Positions 45,600-58,511 of a DNA stretch of 58,923 bases are shown here, one piece after another. The position numbers and the translations under genes are program-made. Below the pieces are notes generated by a model. It worked only from the letters and a program-made list of their open reading frames with translations, was not told the DNA's origin and did no database searches. Location: positions 1 to 58,923 of the forward strand of contig JAFUEP010000014.1 of assembly GCA_017470345.1 (NCBI GenBank). Reading direction: 5' to 3'. The DNA is from Prevotella sp. GTDB taxonomy: Bacteria; Bacteroidota; Bacteroidia; Bacteroidales; Bacteroidaceae. How positions within the stretch are numbered: position 1 is the first letter of the stretch; each line of letters opens with the position of its first letter.

Positions 45600-45691
45600 A
45601 AACTCTCGCCACGTCGTGACGGCATGGCGTCACGGCGTGACGGCATGAAATCACGACGTGACGGCATGACGTCACGTCGTGACGAGAGTTT
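45600..45691. repeat. 92-bp palindromic element, copy 3
   Basis: Terminal inverted AAACTCTCG / CGAGAGTTT and four CACGWCGTGACGG-type units with a 21-base period. It lies between convergent nrdG and the kinase gene. Confidence 0.9.
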
Positions 45692-45754: not shown

Positions 45755-46633
45755 CTATACGGGCATGGTGAGGATGAATCCGGCGCGGCAGCTGTCCTGC
45801 TGCTTCTCAGCCAGGTCGAGCATGCCGCCCTGCTGCACCATCATGCGTCGGCTGAGCGACAGGCCGATGCCGCTGCCCCGGCGCTTGGTGGTGAAGAAGG
45901 GCACGAAGAGCGACTGTCGGTTCTCGGCCGGCACGGGCAGTCCGTCGTTGCCGATGTAGAGTGAATAGTGATCAGTGATCAGTGAATAGTTTGTTTCCGC
46001 TTGAGGGGCCAAAACCATCCTCTTGGCCTGCGCCTCGACGGCGTTCTTGGTCAGGTTGATCAGCACCTGGCGCAGCATGCCGCTGTCAGCGCGGACGGTG
46101 AGGTCGGCCGGCACGTCGATCACCCATTCCAGCTCGGGGTAGGCCTTTCGGACATCGTCGAGCATCGGGCGCAGCACCACGTCGGCCATGACGGGCTGCT
46201 CGAGTTGCGACATCTTTCGATAGTTGCTGACAAAGTCGCTCAGGTGGCGGCTCGTGTCGTAGATGGCCCGCACGCCGTCCTCCAGGGGCGTGCCCTTCAC
46301 GTCCGTGCGGGCGAGCATCGACTGGCTGATGCTGGTGATGGGGGCCGTGGCGTTCATCATCTCGTGGGTCAGCACGCGCGTCAGCCTCTCCCACGACTCC
46401 ACCTCGTTTTGGCTGACCTGCCGCCGGATGGTCTCGCCCAGCTGGTTGAGCGTCTCCTGCATGGCCCGCTCGCCGGGCAGCAGTCCGTCGGTAGGCAGTC
46501 GGAAGGTGAAGTCGCGGTTGCGCATGGCCTCCTGCATCAGCCGTGCCCGCAGCCTCAGCCGCCGCTGATGGCGCACAAACCACCAGACAAACAACAATAG
46601 TCCAACACCTATTATAATAAAAAGACTAATCAT
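45755..46633 (-). CDS. Sensor histidine kinase partner of the REC-Fis regulator
   Basis: 292 residues from ATG at 46633; a GTG at 46642 is in frame. One N-terminal membrane helix (residues ~3-20), no periplasmic domain, a linker, then HisKA with H90 in VLTHEMMNATAPI. The HATPase has NLTKNAVEAQ, IGNDGLPVP and GSGIGLSLSRRM, the pattern of NtrB-type kinases. Residues ~209-225 (PQAETNYSLITDHYS) are encoded by a simple repeat inserted in frame inside the ATPase domain. It follows the regulator gene on the minus strand with only a purine-rich junction repeat between. With no sensory domain, the signal may come through the membrane helix or a permease. Confidence 0.88.
   Translation of the reverse strand: MISLFIIIGVGLLLFVWWFVRHQRRLRLRARLMQEAMRNRDFTFRLPTDGLLPGERAMQETLNQLGETIRRQVSQNEVESWERLTRVLTHEMMNATAPITSISQSMLARTDVKGTPLEDGVRAIYDTSRHLSDFVSNYRKMSQLEQPVMADVVLRPMLDDVRKAYPELEWVIDVPADLTVRADSGMLRQVLINLTKNAVEAQAKRMVLAPQAETNYSLITDHYSLYIGNDGLPVPAENRQSLFVPFFTTKRRGSGIGLSLSRRMMVQQGGMLDLAEKQQDSCRAGFILTMPV
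45959..46003. repeat. In-frame repeat insertion inside the kinase gene
   Basis: GTGAATAGTGATCAGTGATC-type repeats are followed by TTTGTTTCCGC (45990-46000), a variant of the TTTGCTACCGC motif in the GH105 insertion. Confidence 0.65.
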
Positions 46634-46664
46634 ACTTCTCACCTCTCACTTCTCACCTCTCACT
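46634..46664 (-). repeat. Purine-rich junction repeat between regulator and kinase
   Basis: On the minus strand AGTGAGAGGTGAGAAGTGAG-type repeat fills the whole gap between the regulator stop and the kinase ATG. It contains GAGG, a possible ribosome-binding sequence, and several TGA triplets. Confidence 0.7.
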
Positions 46665-47192
46665 TTAAGAAAGCCGTTTCATCTTGTTGTAGAGCGTCTG
46701 TCGGGTGATGCCCAGCAGCTCGGCCGCCAGCGTGAGGTTGCCGTGGCAGCGGTCGATGGTGCGGCGGATGTGGTCGCGCTCCACCTCGTCGAGGCTGACG
46801 ACCTCCTGCTGCATGTCGAGCACGTCCTTCAGCTTGCGCACCAGCTCGTCGTTGTCCCACGGCTTGGTGATGAAGTCGGCGGCGCCGCTCTTCAGCCCCT
46901 TCACGGCCAGCGCCACGTCGGCGTATGCCGTCAGCAGGACGACGGGCGTCTGTGGGTGCGCCCTGCGGATGGTTCGCAGCCAGAAGAGACCCTCCTGTCC
47001 GCTGTTCACGCCGAGCGTGAAGTTCATGTCGAGCAGGACGATGTCGATCTTTTCCTGGGCCATCGTCTTCAGTATGTCGTCAGGGCGCTCCAGGGTCAGG
47101 ATGCGCTCGAAGGTGGCGTCGAGCAGATAGCGCATCGCCGTGAGGATCGAGGCGTTGTCGTCGACGACCAGTATGGTTCCGTATTGCTTCAT
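46665..47192 (-). CDS. Response regulator: receiver plus Fis-type HTH, no AAA+ domain
   Basis: 175 residues. The receiver (1-120) has D11-D12, phospho-acceptor D55 in IVLLDMNFTLG, and K in FITKPW. After a short linker the C-terminal Fis-type HTH (HIRRTIDRCHGNLTLAAELL, then GITRQTLYNKMKRL) ends the protein. NtrC-family regulators place a sigma-54-activating AAA+ domain between these two; it is absent here, as in the RegA/PrrA type. The likely target is the palindrome TGTCTAATTTTTAGACA found upstream of four nearby operons. The promoter (47198-47205) is so close that the mRNA may be leaderless. Confidence 0.9.
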   Translation of the reverse strand: MKQYGTILVVDDNASILTAMRYLLDATFERILTLERPDDILKTMAQEKIDIVLLDMNFTLGVNSGQEGLFWLRTIRRAHPQTPVVLLTAYADVALAVKGLKSGAADFITKPWDNDELVRKLKDVLDMQQEVVSLDEVERDHIRRTIDRCHGNLTLAAELLGITRQTLYNKMKRLS

Positions 47193-47197
47193 GGCTG

Positions 47198-47205
47198 CAA
47201 AGTTA
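47198..47205 (-). promoter_or_regulatory. -7 element of the regulator-kinase operon
   Basis: TAACTTTG on the minus strand, ending 5 bases before the ATG. The operator palindrome lies 32 bases upstream, between this and the divergent HlyD promoter. Confidence 0.6.
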
Positions 47206-47222
47206 CGAAGAATCTGTCAAAT

Positions 47223-47311
47223 AATCATACGACGGACTGTCTAATTTTTAGACGATTTGCACCCGTCGGCCCGGAAAAGCTTGGCAGCATGAGATAAAAG
47301 ATGTAACTTTG
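47223..47311 (+). promoter_or_regulatory. Composite operator-promoter, site 1 (HlyD operon)
   Basis: AATCATAC (47223-47230), 7 bases, TGTCTAATTTTTAGACG (47238-47254), 25 bases, CTTG (47280-47283), 20 bases, TAACTTTG (47304-47311). The last base of the palindrome is changed compared with the other sites. Confidence 0.85.
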
Positions 47312-47334
47312 CCGTCAGAAATCAACGACACGTC

Positions 47335-48588
47335 ATGGACAGAAAAATAGAGAAGACCAAGATGCAGCGGCTGATGAGCCGGTGGCCATACGCGGCGGGC
47401 GGGCTTGTGCTCATCGCCGTCATCGGATGGATTGCCTTCGGCAGCCATGCGGCGACGCTACGGGTCGACCGCGACGAACTGACCGTCAGCGAGGTGCTGC
47501 GGGCCGAGTTTAAGGACTACGTCAGGACCAACGGGCAGGTGATGCCCATCCAGGTGGTGCAGATCTCGCCCGAGGAGGGCGGCATCGTCGTGGAGAAGGT
47601 GGTCGAGGAGGGGTCGCACGTCCGCAAGGGCGACGTCATCATCCGTCTGTCGAACTCCGGGCTCGACCTGCAGATCCTGAACGCCGAGGCGGAGCTGGCC
47701 GAGAAGCAGAACCTGCTGCGCAACACGCAGGTGGCGATGCAGCAGGACCGCCTCAGCAACCAGACGGAACAGGCCCAGCTCGACATGGACACCGAGCGCA
47801 AGCAGCGGGCCTACGACCAGAGCCGCCGCCTCTACGAGCAGAAGCTCATCAGCCGCGAGGAGTTCATCCAGTCGGAGGAGGACTATCGGCTGTCGGAGAA
47901 GAAGCGGCGGCTGGTGAGCCAGCGGCTGAAGCAGGACTCGATCTACCGCACGGTGCAGATGGACCAGATGGAGGACAACCTGGAGAACATGCGGCGCAAC
48001 GTCGTCCTCGTCCGCCAGCGCAAGGACAAGCTCGAGGTGCGCTCCGCCATCGACGGCGAGCTGGGACTGCTCGACGTGGAGCTGGGCCAGAGCATCTCGC
48101 CCGGCCAGATGGTCGGACAGCTGAACGACCTCTCTGACTATAAGGTGCAGGCCGAGATTGACGAGCACTACATCGACCGCGTGCGCCAGGGACTCGCCGC
48201 CACCTTCCAGCGTGGGGGCAAGACGTTTGAGCTGCAGGTGCGCAAGGTCTATCCCGAGGTGCGCCAGGGCAAGTTCCGCTGCGACTTCATCTTCCGTGGC
48301 GAGCGGCCGGAGAACATCCGCACGGGCCAGACCTACTACATCGACCTCGAGCTGGGCCAGCCCGAGCAGGCCGTGCTCATCCCCCGCGGCACGTTCTTCC
48401 AGACCACGGGCGGCCAGTGGATTTTTGTTTTAGACAAAAACGGACAGAAGGCCTATCGCCGCCAGATACGCATCGGCCGCCAGAACCCGCAGCACTACGA
48501 GGTGCTCGAGGGTCTGGAGCCCGGCGAGCGCGTCGTCACCAGCGGCTACGAGGCGTTCAAGGACAACGAGGTGCTGGTCCTGAAGTGA
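47335..48588 (+). CDS. HlyD/RND-type periplasmic adaptor protein
   Basis: 417 residues. One N-terminal membrane helix (residues ~18-38), then the biotinyl-lipoyl-like half (ISPEEGGIVVEKVVEEGSHV), a long coiled-coil hairpin (~110-225), the second lipoyl-like half (RSAIDGELGLLDVELGQSIS) and a beta-barrel/membrane-proximal part (NIRTGQTYYIDLELG; ETRQ-type end with VLEGLEPGERVVTSGYEAFK). Such adaptors link an inner-membrane ABC permease to an outer-membrane channel. It is first in the operon with the FtsX-type permease at 48619 and a lipoprotein. Confidence 0.9.
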   Translation: MDRKIEKTKMQRLMSRWPYAAGGLVLIAVIGWIAFGSHAATLRVDRDELTVSEVLRAEFKDYVRTNGQVMPIQVVQISPEEGGIVVEKVVEEGSHVRKGDVIIRLSNSGLDLQILNAEAELAEKQNLLRNTQVAMQQDRLSNQTEQAQLDMDTERKQRAYDQSRRLYEQKLISREEFIQSEEDYRLSEKKRRLVSQRLKQDSIYRTVQMDQMEDNLENMRRNVVLVRQRKDKLEVRSAIDGELGLLDVELGQSISPGQMVGQLNDLSDYKVQAEIDEHYIDRVRQGLAATFQRGGKTFELQVRKVYPEVRQGKFRCDFIFRGERPENIRTGQTYYIDLELGQPEQAVLIPRGTFFQTTGGQWIFVLDKNGQKAYRRQIRIGRQNPQHYEVLEGLEPGERVVTSGYEAFKDNEVLVLK

Positions 48589-48618
48589 GAAATGAGAAGT
48601 GAAAAGTAAGAAGTGAAT
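48589..48618 (+). repeat. Purine-rich junction repeat between HlyD and permease genes
   Basis: GAGAAATGAGAAGTGAAAAG-type repeat spans the gap from the adaptor stop to the permease ATG (48619). Confidence 0.65.
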
Positions 48619-51015
48619 ATGAGAGAGCTATTACGTAACCTTTGGTATATGGCGCGCCGCTTCAAGACGGCGACAGTGCTCAACTTCTTGGGGCTGACGG
48701 TGGCCTTCGCCGCCTTCTATCTGCTGATGACACAGGTGGACTACGCCCGCTCGTACAACGCCTGCATCAAGGATGCCGACCGCGTCTTCCGCGTGGAGTC
48801 GAAGATGGGCGACGACTATCCGTGGGGCACCAACTGCAACCGCCCCACTCTGACGCAGATCGCCCAGCTGCCGCAGGTGGAGGCCATGAGCGAGCAGGGC
48901 GGCTGGTCGCCCACACGCGAGTTCATCAAGGACGGCAGCGTGGTGGAGCACAGTTGTCTCGGCACTAACCTGACGCCCTTCGGGGCCGTCGCCGCCCGCT
49001 GCCTCAGCGGCAAGCTGTCGTGGGAGGCCTACAGCGACCACACGCTCATCATCCCCGCCTCACTGGCGCGGAAGCTCTTCGGGCGGGTCGACGTGGCCGG
49101 CGAGCCGCTCTACTCGAAGAGCGACACCCTGACCGTGCAGGGCGTCTATGAGGACTTTCCCGATAACTGTTCGATGAAGAACCATGTCTATTGGGCCACG
49201 CAGCAGGACCTCGACAGCTGGAGCGAATGGAGCTACGTGGCCTACGTGAAGCTGCGCGAGGGCGTCGACCCAAAGACGATGCTGACGGGGCTCTCCCGGC
49301 AGCTCAAGGAGCAGATGTGGCGGACGCAGTGGGGCGGCGCGCTGGCTGCCGGTGCGGTCAGTGCCGACCAGGAGCAGGAGATGCGCGCCAGCTTCGACAA
49401 GTATTACAAGCACTACGACTACCGTCTGACGCCCGTGCGCCAGACCTATTTCTCAGGCGTGGCCGGCGACGACAAGGGTAACCCCGCCATGCTCTTCATC
49501 CTGGAGCTGGCCTGCGTGCTCATCATCGTCACCAGCGCCGTCAACTTTCTCAACTTCACGCTGGCACAGAGCCCCATGCGCATCAAGAGCATCAACACGC
49601 GGCGCGTGCTGGGCGAGTCGGCCACGGCGCTGCGCCTGCGCCTCATTGCCGAGAGCGTGCTGTGGGCGCTGCTGGCCTGCGGCGCGGGCCTCGTCGTGTG
49701 TGTTGCTGTAGTACAGCAACAGACGGAACTGCTGCTGGGCTCGCTCGCCGTGGCCGACCACGTATGGCTGGTCGGGCTGATGCTGCTCCTGGCCGTGGCG
49801 GTGGGCGTGGCCGCGGGCGTCTATCCCGCCTTCTTCGCCACCTCGTTCCAGCCCGCGCTGGCACTGAAGGGCTCGTTCGGACTGACGCCCAAGGGCCGGC
49901 GGCTGCGCTCCGTGCTCGTCGGCCTGCAGCTCGGCATCGCCCTGCTCGTGGTCACCTACATCGGCATCCTGCTCCTCCAGAGCCGCTACATCTACGACAG
50001 CGACTACGGTTTCCAGAAGGACGAGGTGCTCTACGTGCAGCTCACCTCGGAGCTGTGGGGCAAGAAGGACGCCATCCGCGCCGAGCTGATGCAGCAGGGC
50101 GGCGTCAGTGACGTGAGCTTCTCGCGCTTCGTGCTCGGCAATGCCGACAGCTACATGGGCTGGGGACGCGGCGACGACGACCACCACATCACCTTCACCT
50201 GCATGCCCGTCGACCACCACTTCCTGCGCACCATGGGCATCAAGGTCATCGAGGGGCGCGACTTCAACGAGCACGACGGCGACTGCTACATCATCAACGA
50301 GGCGGCCCGCCGGCAGTGGCCCTGGGTGGAGATGGACAAGAAGCTGCTATCGAACGACTTCCCCGTCGTCGGCGTCTGCGAGAACATCCGCTTCATGTCC
50401 ACCCGCAAGGACCGCCAGCAGGAGCCCCTCGCCTTCATCATCTTCGGCAAGGACCACATCGACTGGGGCGACCAGCTGGGCATTGCCAACATCCGCGTGG
50501 CGGCCGGCGTCGACAAGGTGGACACGCGCCGCAAGCTGGGCGACGTGCTCACAGCGATGGGCAACGGCGAGCGCGTGGAGCCGAAGTTCCTCGACCAGCA
50601 GCTGGAGCGGCTCTATCAGGAGGAGTTCCGCTTCATCCGCCAGGTGGGCTGGTTCGCCGTGCTCTGCCTCGTCATCACGCTCATCGGCGTCTTCTGCCTG
50701 ACGATGTTCGAGACGGAGTATCGCCGCAAGGAGATCGGCATCCGCAAGGTCTTCGGTTCGTCGACGCAGGAAATCCTGCGGATGCTCTGCCGCCACTACG
50801 GCCTGCTGCTCGTCGTCAGCTTCGTCGTCAGCACTCCCCTCGCCTACCACATCGGCCGACAGTGGCTCCAAGGCTTTGCCGAGCGCATCGCCATCCCCTG
50901 GTGGATCTTCCCTCTGGCGCTGCTCGCCGTCGGCTTCGTCACGCTGGCCACCGTCGTCACTCAGAGCTGGCGCACAGCCAGCGAGAATCCCGTGAACAGC
51001 ATCAAGACGGAATGA
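48619..51015 (+). CDS. FtsX/MacB-type ABC permease, large form (1)
   Basis: 798 residues from ATG at 48619; a GTG six bases earlier is in frame. Predicted topology: one N-terminal helix (~20-40), a MacB-like periplasmic core, three helices (~285-455), a second periplasmic core, and three C-terminal helices (~680-795). Each half ends in an FtsX-like domain, the second with RRKEIGIRKVFGSSTQEILR. The final residues TASENPVNSIKTE match the ends of the two other permeases in the window. It has no ATP-binding domain. With the HlyD adaptor it could export a peptide, lipid or lipoprotein if an ATPase is supplied elsewhere. Confidence 0.88.
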   Translation: MRELLRNLWYMARRFKTATVLNFLGLTVAFAAFYLLMTQVDYARSYNACIKDADRVFRVESKMGDDYPWGTNCNRPTLTQIAQLPQVEAMSEQGGWSPTREFIKDGSVVEHSCLGTNLTPFGAVAARCLSGKLSWEAYSDHTLIIPASLARKLFGRVDVAGEPLYSKSDTLTVQGVYEDFPDNCSMKNHVYWATQQDLDSWSEWSYVAYVKLREGVDPKTMLTGLSRQLKEQMWRTQWGGALAAGAVSADQEQEMRASFDKYYKHYDYRLTPVRQTYFSGVAGDDKGNPAMLFILELACVLIIVTSAVNFLNFTLAQSPMRIKSINTRRVLGESATALRLRLIAESVLWALLACGAGLVVCVAVVQQQTELLLGSLAVADHVWLVGLMLLLAVAVGVAAGVYPAFFATSFQPALALKGSFGLTPKGRRLRSVLVGLQLGIALLVVTYIGILLLQSRYIYDSDYGFQKDEVLYVQLTSELWGKKDAIRAELMQQGGVSDVSFSRFVLGNADSYMGWGRGDDDHHITFTCMPVDHHFLRTMGIKVIEGRDFNEHDGDCYIINEAARRQWPWVEMDKKLLSNDFPVVGVCENIRFMSTRKDRQQEPLAFIIFGKDHIDWGDQLGIANIRVAAGVDKVDTRRKLGDVLTAMGNGERVEPKFLDQQLERLYQEEFRFIRQVGWFAVLCLVITLIGVFCLTMFETEYRRKEIGIRKVFGSSTQEILRMLCRHYGLLLVVSFVVSTPLAYHIGRQWLQGFAERIAIPWWIFPLALLAVGFVTLATVVTQSWRTASENPVNSIKTE

Positions 51016-51083
51016 AAAATAATGCGGTCGGCCATGCAATAAACCGTCGTCGGCGTCGTTTTAGAGTAAAAAAAGGAATGATT

Positions 51084-51722
51084 ATGAAGAATCTATTGTT
51101 TTCAGTGCTGGCCGTGGCCATGCTGGCCGCCTGCGACCGTGGCCCCACGTTCCACGGACTGACCGAGCAGGATAAAGAGGACTATGCCCAGGGCATCATG
51201 GGCGAATATCCGGGCCGCTACAGCATTATCTATACCGACCGCCAGACCAAGCAAACGAACCGCGAGGACATCGACGACGTCACGTTCAGCGTCAGCAACC
51301 TGACCGCTCACACCGTCATCTTCAACGGCTTCCCCCTGCGTCTGCTCACCCGCGTGGTCGACGACCCCGAGCTGAGCCAGGCCCTCAGCGCCCTGCCCGA
51401 CATGGGACTGACGGGCAGCTATGCGTTCGTGAAGGAGGCGGAGGCCGGCCAGGTGGGGTGGACGCTCGAGATGCACCCCGTGGCGCTGTCGCTGACCTAC
51501 GGCGGGCAGCAGCACAACATCGTGCTGCATTTCCGCAGCCTCTACACCTCCATCACGCTCGCCAAGGGTCAGATACAGGGCGGCACGGCCTTCGGGCAGG
51601 ACCGGCAGCTGTCGCTGGAGCTCACCGACATCTACGAAGGCGACCGACTCTTGCAGTCGTTCAACGACGGCTGGCAGGAGGAGCGCCCCGTGTTTCTGGC
51701 CGTCTTCCGCTTCGGACTGTAA
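51084..51722 (+). CDS. Lipoprotein, DUF4840-like
   Basis: 212 residues from ATG at 51084 (ATG at 51078 possible). The lipoprotein signal has the lipobox LAAC near residue 17. The mature part opens with FHGLTEQDKEDYAQGIMGEY and contains DDVTFSVSNLTAHTVIFNGF, a pattern I associate with DUF4840 lipoproteins, though I am not certain. Its gene follows the permease by 68 bases and the next operator lies just after it, so it closes this operon. A role as exported cargo or accessory factor is possible. Confidence 0.6.
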   Translation: MKNLLFSVLAVAMLAACDRGPTFHGLTEQDKEDYAQGIMGEYPGRYSIIYTDRQTKQTNREDIDDVTFSVSNLTAHTVIFNGFPLRLLTRVVDDPELSQALSALPDMGLTGSYAFVKEAEAGQVGWTLEMHPVALSLTYGGQQHNIVLHFRSLYTSITLAKGQIQGGTAFGQDRQLSLELTDIYEGDRLLQSFNDGWQEERPVFLAVFRFGL

Positions 51723-51725
51723 AAG

Positions 51726-51814
51726 AATCATACACCTCGCTGTCTAATTTTTAGACAATCTGCATCCGCCAGGGCCTCGGGCCTTGGCGGATTCATTTTA
51801 TTGCCTTAACTTTG
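51726..51814 (+). promoter_or_regulatory. Composite operator-promoter, site 2 (second permease)
   Basis: AATCATAC (51726-51733), 7 bases, TGTCTAATTTTTAGACA (51741-51757), 25 bases, CTTG (51783-51786), 20 bases, TAACTTTG (51807-51814). A hairpin-forming CCGCCAGGGCC / GGCCTTGGCGG lies between palindrome and spacer and covers the CTTG. Confidence 0.88.
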
Positions 51815-51838
51815 CAGCATCAAAAGCATTTAGAACGT

Positions 51839-54211
51839 ATGAAGAGTTATTTCAGATTCCTGTCGCGCAACAAGCTATATACCTTTATTAATATAGCCGG
51901 GCTGGTGGTGTCGCTGATGTTCATCATCCTCATGGGCGACTACACCTGGCGCCAGTACAGCATCGACTCATGGCACAAGAATGCCGACCGCATCTGCCTG
52001 ACGGGTAGTGGCGAGGACTTCTTCATGTGGCCGCAAGCGGCAGAGGAGTTCAAGGCGATGTGTCCCGAGGTGGAGAAGACCTGCTGCGTGATGAGTCAGC
52101 AGGGCAAAATCAGGTACGGGCAGCGCGAGGTGAAGAGCACGGCCAGCGACAACGGCATCATCATGCTGGCGGACTCGACGTTCTTCCAGTTCTTCGACTT
52201 CCCATTGGTGCAGGGCGACCGACAGACGGCCCTCGATGCGCCGGACAAGTGCGTCGTGACGGAGCGGCTGGCCCGCCAGCTCTTTGGCGACAAGAACCCC
52301 ATCGGCGAACAGCTGCAGATAGTGGGCGACCGCAATGTGCGGATGAACAATGTTGACCCCTACGACTCGACGCTGGTCTATACTGTGAGCGCCATCGCCA
52401 AAGACTTCGACCACACCGTGCTGCCCAACGAGACGCAAATCATTGCCAGTATGGAGCGCTTCGGCCAAGTGATGGGCTACCGGCTCACCCCCGATGCCTT
52501 CGCCTACGGGCCAACGGGAGCCTGCAAGGCTTTCCTGATGCTGCGACCCGGCACCACGCTCGACGGCAAGAAGAAAACGATAGAGGAACACCTGACGAAG
52601 AACTATATGCTGTGGAGTCGCATGGGCGAACACACCTTCACCGCGACGCCCCTCACCGACATCATGTTTGCACCGCAGAACAACGGCTGGGGTATGCAGA
52701 AGGGCGACCATACACGACTCAGCATCCTGTTGGCCGCCGTGCTGGCCATCCTTTTCTTCGCCATCAGCAACTACATCAACCTGACCGTGGCCAACACAGG
52801 TTTCCGCGCCAAGGAGATGGCCACGCGACGGCTCTTCGGCAGCAGCCAGCGAAAGATTTCACTGAAACTCATGGCCGAATCGACGCTAATGGTGGCGGTC
52901 TGCTTCGCCCTCGGATTAGGCTTGGCCTTCTACTTCCAGGACGATGCCATCGAACTGTTCAGGGGAAAGATAGACTTGGCTAACGATATTCATGTGGGCA
53001 CCGTCAGCGTCTGCCTCGGCTTCATCCTGCTGTTGGGCATCGTCTCGGGCATCATGCCGTCGTGGCAGATAGCCCGTTTCCAGCCCATCGACATCGTGAA
53101 AGGCACGTTCCGCTACCACTCGAAGATGGTGCTGGGCCGGCTGTTTATCATTATGCAGAACGTGGTGACCATCACCATGCTCACCTCGGCACTGGTCATC
53201 TGGCTGCAGCTGCACCACCTCATCCATGCGCCCTTAGGCTTCAACACTGAGAACCTCTACTATGTCAATAGCCCGGAGGGCAAGAGCCAGACGTTGAGAA
53301 ACCAACTGGAAAAACTGCCGTTCGTAGAAGCCATCGGCGAATATAGGGGCACGACCTTCTCTAACTATAACTCGTCGATGCGCTCCATCACCGAAGGAGA
53401 CAAGTTGGTGACCCTGTTCATGACAACCTTGGACTCGACAGCCTTCAACCTCTATGGCCTGCAAGTCCTCAAAGACTACGGCCCGGCGAGTGACGGCTAC
53501 TATCTGAACGAGGAAGCCATGCGCCGTTTCGGCTATGACAGCGACAAGCGGGAGATGACGTGGGGTAAGGACGAGACGAAGCCCATCAGCGGTGTCATCA
53601 AGGACTTCCACCGTGTCAATGTGCTGGGCGACTATGAGCCATTTGCTATCCAGGTTAAGGAACATGTAGAGGCCCCCAACTTCCTCGTCAGGACTAACGG
53701 CGACAAGAACGCCAAGGCGGCCTTCATGCAGATGCTCAAGGCCCTGGACGTGGCTGATGAAGACCTGGATTGGCTTGTCGGCAGCATCGAGGAGAACATC
53801 GCCGACACCTTCGAAGACCAGCAGAATACGCTGAAGATTGTCAGCCTTTTCTCTCTCGTGGCTGTCATCATCAGCGTGCTGGGCTTCGTCGGTATATCGC
53901 TCTTCTTCATCCGCCAGCGCAAGAAGGAGATTGCCATCCGCAAGGTGATGGGCTCTACATCGAGCGAGGTACTGGTGCTGATGCTCCGCACGTTCTCCGC
54001 CCCGCTGCTGGTGTCGTTCGTCATCGCCGTGCCCATCTCCTATTACATCATGCACGACTGGCTCACGAACTTCTCCTATCGCATCGCGCTCAGCCCCTGG
54101 ATATTCGCCGCTGCCGGGTTTACTTGCTTCATCATTTCCCTGCTCACCGTCGTCATCCAGAGCTGGCGCGCTGCGACGGAGAATCCCGTCAGGAACATCA
54201 AGACGGAATAA
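51839..54211 (+). CDS. FtsX/MacB-type ABC permease, large form (2)
   Basis: 790 residues from ATG at 51839; a TTG upstream falls inside the -7 element and is not used. The same two-halves layout as the permease at 48619: N-terminal helix (~12-34), MacB-like core, helices near 300-455, second core, and C-terminal helices (~675-785). FtsX signatures are FRAKEMATRRLFGSSQRKIS and RKKEIAIRKVMGSTSSEVLV. The end is TENPVRNIKTE. It is alone in its transcription unit, with no adaptor or ATPase gene next to it. It is controlled by its own copy of the composite operator. Confidence 0.88.
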   Translation: MKSYFRFLSRNKLYTFINIAGLVVSLMFIILMGDYTWRQYSIDSWHKNADRICLTGSGEDFFMWPQAAEEFKAMCPEVEKTCCVMSQQGKIRYGQREVKSTASDNGIIMLADSTFFQFFDFPLVQGDRQTALDAPDKCVVTERLARQLFGDKNPIGEQLQIVGDRNVRMNNVDPYDSTLVYTVSAIAKDFDHTVLPNETQIIASMERFGQVMGYRLTPDAFAYGPTGACKAFLMLRPGTTLDGKKKTIEEHLTKNYMLWSRMGEHTFTATPLTDIMFAPQNNGWGMQKGDHTRLSILLAAVLAILFFAISNYINLTVANTGFRAKEMATRRLFGSSQRKISLKLMAESTLMVAVCFALGLGLAFYFQDDAIELFRGKIDLANDIHVGTVSVCLGFILLLGIVSGIMPSWQIARFQPIDIVKGTFRYHSKMVLGRLFIIMQNVVTITMLTSALVIWLQLHHLIHAPLGFNTENLYYVNSPEGKSQTLRNQLEKLPFVEAIGEYRGTTFSNYNSSMRSITEGDKLVTLFMTTLDSTAFNLYGLQVLKDYGPASDGYYLNEEAMRRFGYDSDKREMTWGKDETKPISGVIKDFHRVNVLGDYEPFAIQVKEHVEAPNFLVRTNGDKNAKAAFMQMLKALDVADEDLDWLVGSIEENIADTFEDQQNTLKIVSLFSLVAVIISVLGFVGISLFFIRQRKKEIAIRKVMGSTSSEVLVLMLRTFSAPLLVSFVIAVPISYYIMHDWLTNFSYRIALSPWIFAAAGFTCFIISLLTVVIQSWRAATENPVRNIKTE

Positions 54212-54221
54212 CCAGTCCGGA

Positions 54222-54313
54222 AATCTTTCGTCACGTCGTGACGCCATGCCGTCACGGCGTGACGGCATGAAATCACGTCGTGACGGCATGCCGCCACGAC
54301 GTGACGTAAGTTT
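54222..54313. repeat. 92-bp palindromic element, copy 4
   Basis: Same layout as the other three copies, starting AATCTTTCGTCACG and ending CGTGACGTAAGTTT. It lies 10 bases after the permease stop. Confidence 0.85.
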
Positions 54314-54452
54314 GATCTTACTCCCCTATTTGGTCCTGCCTGCAGGTCTGACCTCCCCCTCCCCCGCTTCATTTAACATCACTTAACATCGCAGGGCGCA
54401 AGGTTTTCCCGCCGCGCTGTTTTGTTTTATAGAAACAATCAAGCGAAAAGAC

Positions 54453-55190
54453 ATGAATAGAATTGGAAAAGCGATCATGGGGCTGATGCTCGCAGCACTC
54501 CCCGCAGTGATGAACGGACAGGACATCCATTGGCAGGCGCGCGGCGGCATCGGCCGCTCGACGCTCTTTGCCGGCGTGACGAACATCGAGGACCGCACGG
54601 GCTTCCACGTCGGCGGCGGGGCCGACATCGGACTGTCGAAGAACGGCGTCTGGCGCCTGCAGCCGTCGCTCCAGTTTGTGAGGAAAGGCTGGCGGTTCGA
54701 GGGCTACTACGGCAGCGAGCAAATCATGGAGGCCCGCTTCAGCACGGGCCTCGACTACCTTCAGCTGCCGCTCCAGCTGGCGGCCCGCCTCAGGCTGGGC
54801 GAGCGCTGCTTCCTCACCTTCCGCACGGGCGCCTACGTGGCCTGCGGACTCAGCGGCAAGACCCGCCTGGACGTCGTGAACACCGACCGCTGCGAGACCT
54901 TCGATGTGAACCACTTCAGCCACGCCTTCGACTTCCACTCGTGTGCCTACGACCGCGAGAGCCGCCCGGTCAGCTATCCCGCCTTCAACCGCTGGGATGC
55001 CGGCGCCATCGGGGGCCTCGACCTGACGCTGGGCCACTTCATCATCGGCTACGACGTCTGCGTCGGGCTGACGAGCGTCTCGGACGCGGGCTTCATGGGC
55101 AACCCCGTGGGCAACGCTGCCACGGCCGTCCTCCTGGGCGCCCACCCCAAGAACATCATGGCCGACCTCTCCGTCGGCTATCGGTTCTGA
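54453..55190 (+). CDS. Outer-membrane beta-barrel protein
   Basis: 245 residues with a signal peptide ending NGQ (residues 1-22). The mature part alternates hydrophobic and polar residues in strands typical of an 8-10-strand barrel (FHVGGGADIGLSKNGVWRLQ; LQLPLQLAARLRLGERCFLT; FIIGYDVCVGLTSV) and ends in YRF, with the terminal aromatic needed for outer-membrane insertion. It belongs to the broad PorT/OMP_b-brl class, but no specific function can be assigned. It has no composite operator upstream, and no clear promoter in 54314-54452. It sits between two operator-controlled genes and may be read through from the permease. Confidence 0.7.
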   Translation: MNRIGKAIMGLMLAALPAVMNGQDIHWQARGGIGRSTLFAGVTNIEDRTGFHVGGGADIGLSKNGVWRLQPSLQFVRKGWRFEGYYGSEQIMEARFSTGLDYLQLPLQLAARLRLGERCFLTFRTGAYVACGLSGKTRLDVVNTDRCETFDVNHFSHAFDFHSCAYDRESRPVSYPAFNRWDAGAIGGLDLTLGHFIIGYDVCVGLTSVSDAGFMGNPVGNAATAVLLGAHPKNIMADLSVGYRF

Positions 55191-55270
55191 AAATAAAAAG
55201 TCCATTTAGTGAGCGTTAAGCACATTCGAGTGAGAATACTTCAGGTTAGGCTTAGGGCTGAGTGTCAAAG

Positions 55271-55359
55271 AATCATACGCTTTAGTGTCTAATCTTTAGA
55301 CAAACGGCCTGGCGGCAGGCTGAAATGCTTGGAGGCAGAGGCGAATCGTCGTAACTTTG
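55271..55359 (+). promoter_or_regulatory. Composite operator-promoter, site 3 (secreted protein)
   Basis: AATCATAC (55271-55278), 7 bases, TGTCTAATCTTTAGACA (55286-55302), 25 bases, CTTG (55328-55331), 20 bases, TAACTTTG (55352-55359). One base in the palindrome centre differs. Confidence 0.85.
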
Positions 55360-55406
55360 CATCATCGAAAATGAACAAAACATGTCAAACAACTAAAAAC
55401 ATTACG

Positions 55407-55967
55407 ATGATGAAAAAGATGATGATTCTGATGATGACGATGTGCCTCACGGCACTCGCCACGGAGGCCCAGGTGATGACCTCGGAAACAGTGACCAAGG
55501 TGTATGAGAAGGCGACGACGACCAGGGGCGACGAGTTCGCCTACAATGCAGCGTACGACGACGAGGGCCGCATCGTCGCGACGGACGTCTACAGGAAGCG
55601 CCCGCTGCGCAAAGGCGACGTCCGCCTCGTCCCCACCTGCCGCTACGAGTATGTCTATGCCGCTGACGGACTGCTCAGCAGCCGCGTGATGTACGTGTGG
55701 CGCAGCGACGAATGGCGGCTCGCCGGACGCCATGACTATAGGCTCGCCGAGGGGACCTACACAGTGACTTACAGCCGATGGAGCCGCAGGAAGGCAGCCT
55801 TCGACCAGCCGCTCGGCATGATGACCTACAGCCTGCTCCCCGACGAGTCGGTCTACAGCGTCGCCTGCTATTACCGCCACCACAGGGAGGCGCCCATGGA
55901 GCTGGAGTGGCAGACGCCAGTGGAACCCCAGGCGGCCGGCGCCGACTATTACCTGACCAAGGAGTAA
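55407..55967 (+). CDS. Secreted protein of unknown function under the composite operator
   Basis: 186 residues from ATG at 55407 (55371 is possible but leaves a leader of a few bases). The signal peptide, very rich in Met, ends ATEAQ. The mature protein has Arg- and Tyr-rich beta strands (YNAAYDDEGRIVATDVYRKR; CRYEYVYAADGLLSSRVMYV; RLAGRHDYRLAEGTYTVTYS) like the DUF3836 group of Bacteroides proteins, though that match is tentative. It has its own copy of the operator, so it belongs to the regulon of the REC-Fis regulator and may be cargo of, or helper for, the neighbouring permeases. Confidence 0.65.
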   Translation: MMKKMMILMMTMCLTALATEAQVMTSETVTKVYEKATTTRGDEFAYNAAYDDEGRIVATDVYRKRPLRKGDVRLVPTCRYEYVYAADGLLSSRVMYVWRSDEWRLAGRHDYRLAEGTYTVTYSRWSRRKAAFDQPLGMMTYSLLPDESVYSVACYYRHHREAPMELEWQTPVEPQAAGADYYLTKE

Positions 55968-55984
55968 GGTCAGGAGTGTCTAAT

Positions 55985-56073
55985 AATCACACGCCCGACT
56001 GTCTAATTTTTAGACAATCTGCATCCGCCAGGGCCTCGGGCCTTGGCGGATTCGCGTTTTAGGCGTAACTTTG
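55985..56073 (+). promoter_or_regulatory. Composite operator-promoter, site 4 (third permease)
   Basis: AATCACAC (55985-55992), 7 bases, TGTCTAATTTTTAGACA (56000-56016), 25 bases, CTTG (56042-56045), 20 bases, TAACTTTG (56066-56073). About 55 bases from the palindrome onward are identical to site 2, including the hairpin. Confidence 0.88.
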
Positions 56074-56096: not shown

Positions 56097-58511
56097 ATGA
56101 AAAGCTTTTTCAGATTCCTGAGCCGCCACAGGCTGTTTACACTGATCAATATCGTGGGGCTGTGCCTCTCGATGGCGTTCCTGCTGCTGTTGGGCGACCT
56201 GATCTACCGACAGACGACGGTGGAGAACTACCAGACGCGCGCCGACCGCACGTTCGTTGTAGGCAACGAGATGTGCATGATGTCGAACTTCCGTGTAGGC
56301 GAGCGACTGAAAGAGCGTTTCCCTGAGGTGGAGGACTGGTGCTCGATGGCTGGCTACGGCATGACGTTCCACATTGGGGCGCAGAAGGCCGAAACAAAAG
56401 TGCTGGTGACGGGCCAGAACTTCTTCACGTTCTTCGACTACCGTCTGCTGACGGGCGACCGACGGAAGGTGCTCAGCGCACCCAATCAGATTGTGGTGAG
56501 CAAGTCGTTCGCACAGCGCTATTGGCCCGATGAGAGTCCAATAGGCAAGGAGATGGTGCTGGGTGATGACGAAATGGAGTTAGGTGATGCGAACGACGGG
56601 AAAGGCCATATCACTTACACCGTCAGCGGCATCATGGACGACTTCGACCGAAGCATCATCCCCGACGGCTATGACTGCGTGTTCAACGTAGAGAACCTGC
56701 GCCACTTCCACTATTCGGCCTGGAGCGAGCAGATGAACAACGCGTCGTGCTGCGTGCTCTTCCTGATGCAGCGCGAGGGCTGCGACCTGCGAAGCAAAAC
56801 TGGCGATATGATCGACTTTCTGAAGACTTTCTTCTGGCTTTACCAGATGGAGGCCGCAAAGGAACTGACGCTCACGCCGTTCTCCACCATTTACTATGAC
56901 GCGATGGAGTGTTCGTTAGGTCAGGAAGACATCAATCATGGTAGTCGGGAGATGGCACATCTCTATGTAGTTGTTGCCCTACTGGTACTGGTGTTCGCCA
57001 TCTTCAACTACGTGAACCTGAGCGTGTCGCTCACCTCCGAGCGGTCGAAGGAGATGGCCACCCGGCGACTGCTGGGTCTCTCGCGCCTGCAGGTCTTTGC
57101 CCGACTGATAGGCGAGAGCATCCTCTTTACTGCCATTGCCTTCGTCGTTGGCTATCTGATAGCACTCGCCCTGGAGGACAAGGCGATGGAGATGGCCAAC
57201 TGTCCGCTGGATTTGCTGAAGGATACAGGCTTTGGCACTATCATTGCCTTCCTGGCGGGCATCATCCTCGTTGGCTCGTTGGCAGGCTTCGTGCCTGCCA
57301 CGATATTGAGCGGCTACCAGCCTATCGACATCGTGCGCGGCACCTTCCGCCGTCGTGTGCGCCAGCGGTGGAGCCACGCGCTGATGGTCATTCAGGCCGT
57401 CTTTGCCATTGTCATGCTGACCATCACGCTATTGCTGGGCAAAGGCATTCGTGAACTCATGAATCGGCCGCTGGGCTACGACATCGAGAACATTCTCAAG
57501 ACATGGGATGTTGCCGGCTTCAGCGAGAGCCAGCGGCAGACGTTCCGCAGCAAACTGCTGGCACTGCCGGAGGTGGAGACCGTCGGCTTCGGCTATGGCA
57601 CACCATTAGAGGGACTGGAGAACTGGACGATCTCGGCTGACGGGGCAGTGATAAGTCAGCGATTGCTGATAGGCGACAGTTGCTTTTTCAACACCTTGAA
57701 CATCCACCCTGAGAAAACCTACAGCGAGGATGGCTGGGGAGTGAACCACCAACTGCTGCGCCAGTTCGGCAAGAGGGATGAAGAAAGGAGAATCGTCACG
57801 GCTGACGGTACACAGGACTTTGAAGTGGGCGCTGTCTATCCCGATATGGTCTATCAGAACGTGATGCGCGAGGAGGAGCACCCCACCCCGTTCCTAATCC
57901 TCAACGTAGGAGAATTCCTCGACGAAGCCGATATGACTGATAAAATCAACAACTATGTGAACAGGAGTTACGGCAAGCCGCGCCAAGCATTGATTAAATA
58001 TCATGGCAATCGCCAGAAGGTGGAAGATGCCATTAAGCAGCAAATCAGGGCGATGACAGGCCAAGAGGCGGGCGACGTCCACTCACTTGCTCAGAGTCAC
58101 GAGGAGTGGTACAAGGACTACCGGCGGTTCCTCAGCGTGCTGATGGTCTTCACCGTTGTAGCCCTGCTGATAGCCGTGCTCGGCCTGATGGCGATGAACA
58201 GCTATTTCATCAGTCAGCGCCGGCGCGAGATTGCCATCCGTCGCGTCTTTGGGGCAGAGATCAGCAGCATCACCCTGCACCTGCTCCTTGCTGTTGTCGT
58301 CCAGTCGGTCGTTGCTATGGTCATAGCCATTCCCCTATCCTACTGGCTGGCTCCGATGGTGAGCAGCATCTCGGGCCTCACCATCCGTATGGAGTTCATG
58401 CCATTGCTGTTGTCCCTTGTCATTGTACTCGCCGTCAATCTGCTGACAGCATTTTTCCAGAGCTGGCGCGCCGCTACCGAGAATCCTGTCAATAACATCA
58501 AGACGGAGTAA
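56097..58511 (+). CDS. FtsX/MacB-type ABC permease, large form (3)
   Basis: 804 residues from ATG at 56097; the in-frame TTG upstream lies before the promoter. It has the same architecture as the other two: N-terminal helix (~15-37), MacB-like core, three helices (~295-450), second core, and C-terminal helices (~690-800). FtsX signatures are ERSKEMATRRLLGLSRLQVF and RRREIAIRRVFGAEISSITL. It ends TENPVNNIKTE. The N terminus (MKSFFRFLSRHRLFTLINIVG) is close to that of the permease at 51839 (MKSYFRFLSRNKLYTFINIAG), pointing to recent duplication. No ATPase gene is present. Confidence 0.88.
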   Translation: MKSFFRFLSRHRLFTLINIVGLCLSMAFLLLLGDLIYRQTTVENYQTRADRTFVVGNEMCMMSNFRVGERLKERFPEVEDWCSMAGYGMTFHIGAQKAETKVLVTGQNFFTFFDYRLLTGDRRKVLSAPNQIVVSKSFAQRYWPDESPIGKEMVLGDDEMELGDANDGKGHITYTVSGIMDDFDRSIIPDGYDCVFNVENLRHFHYSAWSEQMNNASCCVLFLMQREGCDLRSKTGDMIDFLKTFFWLYQMEAAKELTLTPFSTIYYDAMECSLGQEDINHGSREMAHLYVVVALLVLVFAIFNYVNLSVSLTSERSKEMATRRLLGLSRLQVFARLIGESILFTAIAFVVGYLIALALEDKAMEMANCPLDLLKDTGFGTIIAFLAGIILVGSLAGFVPATILSGYQPIDIVRGTFRRRVRQRWSHALMVIQAVFAIVMLTITLLLGKGIRELMNRPLGYDIENILKTWDVAGFSESQRQTFRSKLLALPEVETVGFGYGTPLEGLENWTISADGAVISQRLLIGDSCFFNTLNIHPEKTYSEDGWGVNHQLLRQFGKRDEERRIVTADGTQDFEVGAVYPDMVYQNVMREEEHPTPFLILNVGEFLDEADMTDKINNYVNRSYGKPRQALIKYHGNRQKVEDAIKQQIRAMTGQEAGDVHSLAQSHEEWYKDYRRFLSVLMVFTVVALLIAVLGLMAMNSYFISQRRREIAIRRVFGAEISSITLHLLLAVVVQSVVAMVIAIPLSYWLAPMVSSISGLTIRMEFMPLLLSLVIVLAVNLLTAFFQSWRAATENPVNNIKTE

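Follow-up and report, generated by a model that had tools for sequence, protein, structure and literature searches.

An efflux regulon of Prevotella that probably moved from sigma-54 to the housekeeping polymerase with the loss of the AAA+ motor of its NtrC-type activator

Transcription initiation follows different mechanisms with sigma-54 and with sigma-70 type factors, and sigma-54 promoters require activation. Among the closest described systems to the one considered here are the sigma-54 activators of the NtrC type, with the domain order REC-AAA+-Fis. The DNA analyzed is a stretch of 58,923 nucleotides of Prevotella sp. (contig JAFUEP010000014.1 of assembly GCA_017470345.1, the genome being coded G000), called the window throughout, in which a two-component system with a REC-Fis regulator lies beside four exporter-linked promoters that share a composite operator. 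This system resembles the NtrC-type activators in its REC and Fis domains, in its tandem palindromic upstream sites and in the kind of genes that its relatives control, but the window regulator possesses no AAA+ domain, and the outer-membrane channel promoters of its clade lack the -24/-12 box (0/48, versus 18/19 at loci with the AAA+ domain). The reading that we favor, with fairly good confidence, is that an NtrC-type activator lost its AAA+ motor once, that its efflux regulon moved from sigma-54 to the housekeeping polymerase, and that the sites are operators of the adjacent two-component system.

RegA, PrrA and ActR also have a REC-Fis layout and use sigma-70. The window regulator shares their two-domain form without AAA+, but differs by profile score (66.7 bits to NF033791, with a cut-off of 250). 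NtrC-type regulators that act at sigma-70 promoters include NtrC of Caulobacter, NtrC of Rhodobacter capsulatus and VspR of Vibrio, which lack GAFTGA, and the AAA+ domain is still needed in the Caulobacter and R. capsulatus proteins (PMC10274813). The window regulator would likewise be an NtrC-type regulator that no longer acts via sigma-54, but in the present case no part of the AAA+ domain is left, and the change from sigma-54 to the -33/-7 type can be traced through homologous target promoters. A computational survey (PMC12316311) reports that FtsX-like permeases are regulated by sigma-54, with enrichment in Bacteroidia and other groups, which fits the AAA+ (sigma-54) half of the present comparison. 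In the literature searched, largely titles and abstract openings on Bacteroidota sigma-54 exporters, Prevotella Fis regulators and AAA-less NtrC proteins, no account was found of a regulon whose promoters changed type while its regulator lost the entire AAA+ domain.

The two-component system is encoded as follows:

46665..47192, minus strand: response regulator of 175 residues with REC (7-121) and HTH_8/Fis (134-174) domains (Pfam 4.8e-22, 1.1e-15) and no AAA+ domain
45755..46642, minus strand: partner histidine kinase with one N-terminal hydrophobic segment and an H-box (by eye) and HATPase_c (Pfam)

The regulator translation contains the phosphoacceptor residues (DD, D, T and K) in its REC domain and its gene adjoins the kinase gene, as predicted for a two-component response regulator. 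Only REC and HTH_8 score above cut-off, the AAA+ sigma-54 interaction domain PF00158 being absent; in the one AAA+ relative scanned, PF00158 lies between REC and HTH (4.8e-66). The window kinase has no Pfam match to a PAS domain. PAS was matched in both of the scanned kinases paired with AAA+ forms and in neither of the two paired with AAA-less forms (window, L202), and the lengths of a few other partner kinases agree with this split.

In all four window sites, AATCAYAC is followed by 7 bases, a palindrome, 25 bases, CTTG, 20 bases and TAACTTTG, so that the identical order and distances first described, with a gap of 49 base pairs (bp) from palindrome to -7 element, were found at every one. 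The preliminary description had also proposed a separate upstream element, AATCATAC; the sequence is present, but it does not stand alone, being the right half of a second, distal palindrome, and each operator is therefore a tandem of two palindromes. These are 17 bp long, start 23 bp apart and end 49 bp before the -7 element, which has the form TAnnTTTG present in published work on Bacteroides. The full unit consists of the distal palindrome, 6 bp, the proximal palindrome TGTCTAATTTTTAGACA (0-1 changes), 25 bp, CTTG, 20 bp and TAACTTTG, and begins 8 bp upstream of the site coordinates first given. The divergent promoter of the regulator itself also bears the operator, 9 bp before its -7 element. 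Distal palindromes were read from the sequence, proximal palindromes came from a palindrome search, -33 elements from sequence and logo, and -7 elements of the four sites from sequence and composite-pattern search:

47198..47205, minus strand: -7 element TAACTTTG of the regulator gene's promoter, with 9 bp between it and the distal palindrome (from sequence; 8-9 bp spacing recurs in related loci)
47215..47231, plus strand: site 1 distal palindrome TGTCAAATAATCATACG
47238..47254, plus strand: site 1 proximal palindrome TGTCTAATTTTTAGACG
47280..47283, plus strand: site 1 -33 element CTTG
47304..47311, plus strand: site 1 -7 element TAACTTTG
51718..51734, plus strand: site 2 distal palindrome TGTAAAAGAATCATACA
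51741..51757, plus strand: site 2 proximal palindrome
51783..51786, plus strand: site 2 -33 element
51807..51814, plus strand: site 2 -7 element
55263..55279, plus strand: site 3 distal palindrome TGTCAAAGAATCATACG
55286..55302, plus strand: site 3 proximal palindrome TGTCTAATCTTTAGACA
55328..55331, plus strand: site 3 -33 element
55352..55359, plus strand: site 3 -7 element
55977..55993, plus strand: site 4 distal palindrome TGTCTAATAATCACACG
56000..56016, plus strand: site 4 proximal palindrome
56042..56045, plus strand: site 4 -33 element
56066..56073, plus strand: site 4 -7 element

When up to 3 mismatches are allowed, the palindrome matches seven times in the window, at four places of which three match on both strands; shuffled sequence would give 0.02 matches. 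Because TAnnTTTG occurs 17 times on the plus strand of the window, the chance of three more sites with the offset of site 1 is about 2e-11, a figure that ignores the common ancestry of the sites.

Relatives that retain AAA+ have similar tandem palindromes before the same exporter genes, with sigma-54 promoters. The comparison comprised 73 AAA-less stretches (69 with the regulator; L010, L117, L120 and L121 fetched for the operator), 35 AAA+ stretches (L116 fetched for the operator) and five with both forms, which together cover 74 of the 103 genomes of the genus that have the regulator and 31 of the 34 that have an AAA+ form; two stretches with single palindromes from other families (L118, L119) and 76 of 80 named loci were left out of the counts. 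Around 92 perfect AAA-less palindromes, read in both directions, TAnnTTTG is found at 49 bp 66 times and at 72 bp (49+23, the distance from the distal palindrome) 18 times, a -7 element lies toward the regulator gene at 9 bp and at 32 bp 10 times each, and sigma-54-like boxes number three, at scattered distances. Around 57 AAA+ palindromes (up to 2 mismatches), a sigma-54 box lies at 54-56 bp 17 times and at 75-78 bp nine times, with no -7 peak at 49 bp. Eight of these palindromes have a -7 element at 28 bp, which in the cases read belongs to the regulator's own promoter; at L099, L103, L104 and L105 the palindrome precedes the -7 element of a housekeeping-type promoter of the regulator by about 28 bp. 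This suggests that AAA+ regulators may be autoregulated from a palindrome at their own promoter. In the five stretches with both forms, the 49-bp class occurs five times and no sigma-54 box within 2 mismatches was seen.

The promoters of channel genes provide a gene-by-gene test (71 open frames matched, 68 with usable upstream DNA and three dropped; the OEP family was confirmed for one channel of each class). On the AAA-less side the operator is present in 47/48, with a -7 element at exactly 49 bp in 41/48 and at 48-50 bp in 46/48, and a sigma-54 box in none of the 48; on the AAA+ side the operator is present in 19/19 and a sigma-54 (-24/-12) box in 18/19 (0-1 mismatch; one 43 bp and the others 53-56 bp below the operator), and the 49-bp geometry in none of the 19. 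Among seven AAA-less exceptions inspected by eye, four have 48 or 50 bp and one has 49 bp once the gene start is corrected. Only one both-forms stretch contributed a channel gene, and that gene has an operator and a weak box with 3 mismatches. Shuffled sequences contain a sigma-54 box in 0.4% of cases. The box pattern was taken from loci read earlier, which are not independent of it; the box is present in 12/12 AAA+ loci not inspected beforehand.

A logo of 86 AAA-less sites less than 75% identical, picked for the palindrome and the 49-bp -7 element and therefore fixed in those columns by choice, brought out the distal palindrome, a cTTGg motif at -33 and the dinucleotide CA that follows the -7 element. 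TAnnTTTG with TTG about 20 bp upstream at these 86 sites corresponds to a predicted housekeeping -33/-7 promoter of the Bacteroidota. An extension, ATCTGC, directly 3' of the proximal palindrome is conserved in many of them (e.g. window 51758-51763). The earlier expectation that these promoters are served by the housekeeping polymerase, not sigma-54, is strongly supported, at the level of sequence, by the sigma-54 channel promoters of the AAA+ relatives. Plain sigma-54 control of these operons in G000 was considered and rejected: the best match to an AAA+ activator is 5e-7 (in a genome 61.6% complete), and inspection of the genome's six composite sites by eye showed no -24/-12 box. G000 does have an rpoN gene (C15:147066). 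Alternative spacings are about 11 bp off the norm, namely 60 bp (contig C43 of G000), 43 instead of 54 bp (L222) and 38/61 bp, a class that partly consists of regulator-side promoters of the same operators; for helical phasing these are suggestive only.

We infer a mechanism in which the kinase, which has no recognized sensor domain, would phosphorylate the REC-Fis regulator, which would dimerize and bind both palindromes of each operator, centered near -69 and -92 (presupposing a -7 element that spans about -11 to -4), and would activate the -33/-7 polymerase of the Bacteroidota by direct contact on a fixed helix face. The regulon would encode a tripartite ABC exporter whose parts (adaptor, FtsX/MacB-like permeases and ATPase) are divided among several operons, to which many relatives' regulons would add an outer-membrane channel, along with small secreted proteins or lipoproteins. 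At the divergent regulator gene the operator covers the -33 region and should repress that gene. In evolution, a REC-AAA+-Fis activator would have lost AAA+ once, with promoters changing from -24/-12 to -33/-7 around a nearly identical operator. As for the signal, it is speculation that the exporter itself may report its substrate, as the exporter does to the kinase in BceS-type systems, an idea raised because the kinase has no recognized sensor domain. It is unlikely that, from the same operators, the regulator represses or anti-silences the exporter operons: at its own promoter, where the site overlaps the -33 region, repression is probable, but at the exporter operons the palindromes are wholly upstream of -33 at a rigid spacing, the usual position of an activator, and the same genes of the AAA+ relatives use sigma-54 boxes, which need activation.

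Phylogeny bears on the origin of the regulator. In a tree of REC and HTH columns, 36 AAA-less rows (thinned from 73) form one clade (support 100/100). In a tree rooted on NtrC-type paralogs, which leaves out two long-branched proteins of 147 residues without HTH, the AAA-less rows fall among AAA+ forms (group support 90/88) with no firm sister, and AAA+ is carried by every outgroup row. The trees thus place the AAA-less regulators in common descent with REC-AAA+-Fis regulators, the exact sister not being fixed. It is improbable that the AAA-less regulator, instead of being a shortened exporter-linked NtrC-type regulator, is a different REC-Fis protein, newly evolved or acquired, that took over the operators. 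Such a takeover would agree with the long stem branch of the AAA-less clade (0.58-0.75), its lack of a firm sister and the occurrence of both forms together in ten genomes, but the AAA-less regulators are nearer to the AAA+ family (mean identity 52% in REC, 52% in HTH) than to the sampled NtrC paralogs (42%, 43%), the outgroup rows all retain AAA+, and the two systems have the same exporter neighbors, a related kinase and a common recognition helix, RQTLYNK (10/15 AAA-less, 14/17 AAA+ family and 2/18 paralog rows). Given the long stem and the absence of a firm sister, descent from the exporter-linked subfamily therefore rests also on operator, neighbors and helix.

The half-sites follow the identity of each regulator to that of the window. 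Regulators 55-68% identical have mostly TGTATGA half-sites; those at least 71% identical combine a proximal palindrome built of TGTCTAA/TGTATAA halves with a distal one that usually has a TGTATGA-like half. At residue 169, N is found in rows near the window regulator and in the majority of AAA+ rows, and many TGTATGA rows have S, A, K or R there. A simple code from helix to half-site was rejected as not clean, since L100 and L101 (G030, G024), with N169, also use TGTATGA-like sites. An AAA+ relative is present alongside the motorless form in 10/24 genomes of the distant, mostly TGTATGA group and in 0/79 of the window-regulator group (p 8e-8, uncorrected for kinship and completeness); in four genomes (L202, L203, L205, L209) the two regulators are no more than about 4 kb apart, the AAA-less one with TGTATGA operators. 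Because of this co-occurrence we tentatively consider a takeover in two steps, a possibility short of an even chance: a duplicated copy of the NtrC-type system may have shed the AAA+ motor of its regulator, together with the PAS domain of its kinase, and run its own exporter operon from TGTATGA operators, and later, with the AAA+ original lost, may have captured the TGTCTAA operators, taking the regulon from sigma-54 to the housekeeping polymerase. The hybrid distal palindrome, with one TGTCTAA-like and one TGTATGA half, would then be a relic.

Orthologs of the REC-Fis regulator are confined to one genus among 119 relatives (G000 included), with 13 others full or partial and one fragment. Of 398 congeneric genomes, taken from a larger group, 103 contain the regulator whole or in part (G000 included; full matches at least 55% identical), and 34 contain a REC-AAA+-Fis relative (REC domain about 45-58% identical, matches taken to an E-value of about 5e-35). 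Allowing up to 1 mismatch, the composite pattern occurs in 102/398, the reversed control matching in four of the genomes tabulated, and is present in 90/103 genomes with the regulator versus 12/295 without it, the genomes being related and not independent. Among the matches listed, all lie within about 15 kb of the regulator in G392, G163, G024, G384 and G264 (1 to about 20 contigs each). Four named cultured strains with the motorless form (Prevotella/Xylanibacter ruminicola KHT3, D31d and Ga6B6, and Prevotella sp. P6B1) have two 49-bp sites each near the regulator. Outside this family, eight stretches sampled elsewhere in the order also contain AAA+ forms, and in six of them adaptor, permease or ATPase genes lie alongside. 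The earlier proposal of the adjacent REC-Fis protein as the candidate regulator gains support from this co-occurrence and from its being the sole HTH_8 match in the 61.6% complete G000 (2.67 Mb, 68 contigs).

Window site 1 lies before an adaptor-permease-lipoprotein operon, sites 2 and 4 before one permease each, and site 3 before a DUF3836 protein:

47335..48588, plus strand: HlyD/MacA-type periplasmic adaptor, DarC-like but under the DarC model cut-off (profile matches)
48619..51015, plus strand: FtsX/MacB-type permease, ADOP-like (profile matches)
51084..51722, plus strand: putative lipoprotein, DUF4840 (Pfam; lipoprotein by eye from the N-terminus)
51839..54211, plus strand: FtsX/MacB-type permease (Pfam)
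55407..55967, plus strand: DUF3836 protein, secreted by eye from the N-terminus (Pfam and translation)
56097..58511, plus strand: FtsX/MacB-type permease (Pfam)

Pfam agrees with the genes named in the preliminary description (an HlyD adaptor, FtsX permease and lipoprotein, two further permeases and a secreted protein), the lipoprotein and secreted calls being by eye. The set is akin to MacAB-TolC/DarABC and ADOP systems: the adaptor scores 220.6 bits to the DarC model and the window permeases 187-193 bits to ADOP, but all are under the curated cut-offs (450 and 622). The DarABC equivalog models NF038010/NF038008 gave 220.6 of 450 and 47-68 of 700 bits. An OEP-family channel, as in the MacAB-TolC type, is present in relatives and in an operon on contig C43. 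Repeats of the CGTGACGGCATG type lie between operons (window 45600-45690 and 54235-54305).

With up to 1 mismatch allowed, a search of G000 located the palindrome four times in the window, twice on C61 and once on C43. Six of these seven places (window and C61) have the composite pattern without mismatch; the C43 palindrome is perfect but single. At up to 3 mismatches a loose composite pattern gave 530 matches against 217 for the reversed control, and weak matches therefore carry little meaning; an eighth palindrome (C45:71132, 2 mismatches) was excluded, having no TAnnTTTG promoter in a comparable position. One C61 site precedes an FtsX/MacB permease and the other an FtsX/MacB permease followed by an ABC ATPase. 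In the close relative G343 a single unbroken stretch matches the ends of both C65 and C61, which overlap by about 170 bp, so the six composite sites probably form one cluster. The C43 site, with its -7 element 60 bp from the palindrome and no distal palindrome seen by eye, precedes an ATPase-permease-permease-adaptor-channel operon (5/5 genes Pfam-confirmed). The suggested genome search for the palindrome with TAnnTTTG at 49 bp has thus yielded two more composite sites and one single-palindrome site, all before ABC-exporter genes, and with them the further permease and ATPase genes that had been anticipated. A GntR-like gene (119 residues, by eye) ends just upstream of the C43 site. Although its product could be taken for the owner of the palindrome, it is quite improbable that another DNA-binding protein is: the sites lie at the regulator gene in loci of many species, its own promoter included, they co-occur with it genome by genome, and palindromes of the same kind adjoin the AAA+ relatives.

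Spacers of sites 2 and 4 are identical in 42/49 bases and other window pairs in 19-24/49, the spacing nonetheless being equal. Sites 2, 4 and C61:89455 agree in 42-46/49 spacer bases but in only 15-28 of the 60 bp downstream, and their three permeases are 21-30% identical, which possibly reflects promoter homogenization or the site of a second regulator. An inverted repeat, ATCCGCCAGGGCC...GGCCTTGGCGGAT, lies inside the spacers of permease promoters (window 51758-51806 and 56017-56065, and the C61 sites) and reaches the -33 element. That the constant spacing merely records recent duplication of one promoter cassette, with no functional meaning, is very improbable despite these alike spacers, as sites 1 and 3 have just 19-27/49 spacer bases in common with the other five sites and 49 bp is kept in the 86 divergent sequences of many species.

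Several observations weigh against loss of the motor with a switch of promoter type under the adjacent regulator, in addition to the long stem without a firm sister. Half-sites vary within the AAA-less clade (TGTATGA versus TGTCTAA/TGTATAA) despite a like core helix. Thirteen of the 103 regulator-bearing genomes have no composite match with up to 1 mismatch, and of the 12/295 regulator-free genomes with one, some look like chance and others like true operators in incomplete genomes. Some of the matches listed are off the contig of the regulator (e.g. G361:C71, G360:C19, G293:C94), as is one in G429 that looks like chance. By eye, the AAA-less channel promoters of L170 and L210 have no matching -7 element, and the AAA+ channel promoter of L103 does not fit. 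The stretches were mostly chosen near the regulator, so their gene content is partly selected; the genome-wide search of G000 is free of this choice.

How a set of genes moves between sigma-54 and sigma-70 type transcription is an open evolutionary question. The present comparison seems to have captured homologous promoters, in bacteria that are related, before and after such a change: the operator is almost the same, the motor domain has disappeared, and the distance to the promoter is a new one. The cultured strains that have the motorless form and 49-bp sites make this reading testable. The comparison also supplies an operator and a candidate regulon for an exporter family of rumen and gut Bacteroidota. 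In rumen Prevotella, a switch that normally needs an ATP-using activator and a special polymerase subunit now appears, from its sequence features, to operate on the ordinary polymerase from nearly the same DNA address.

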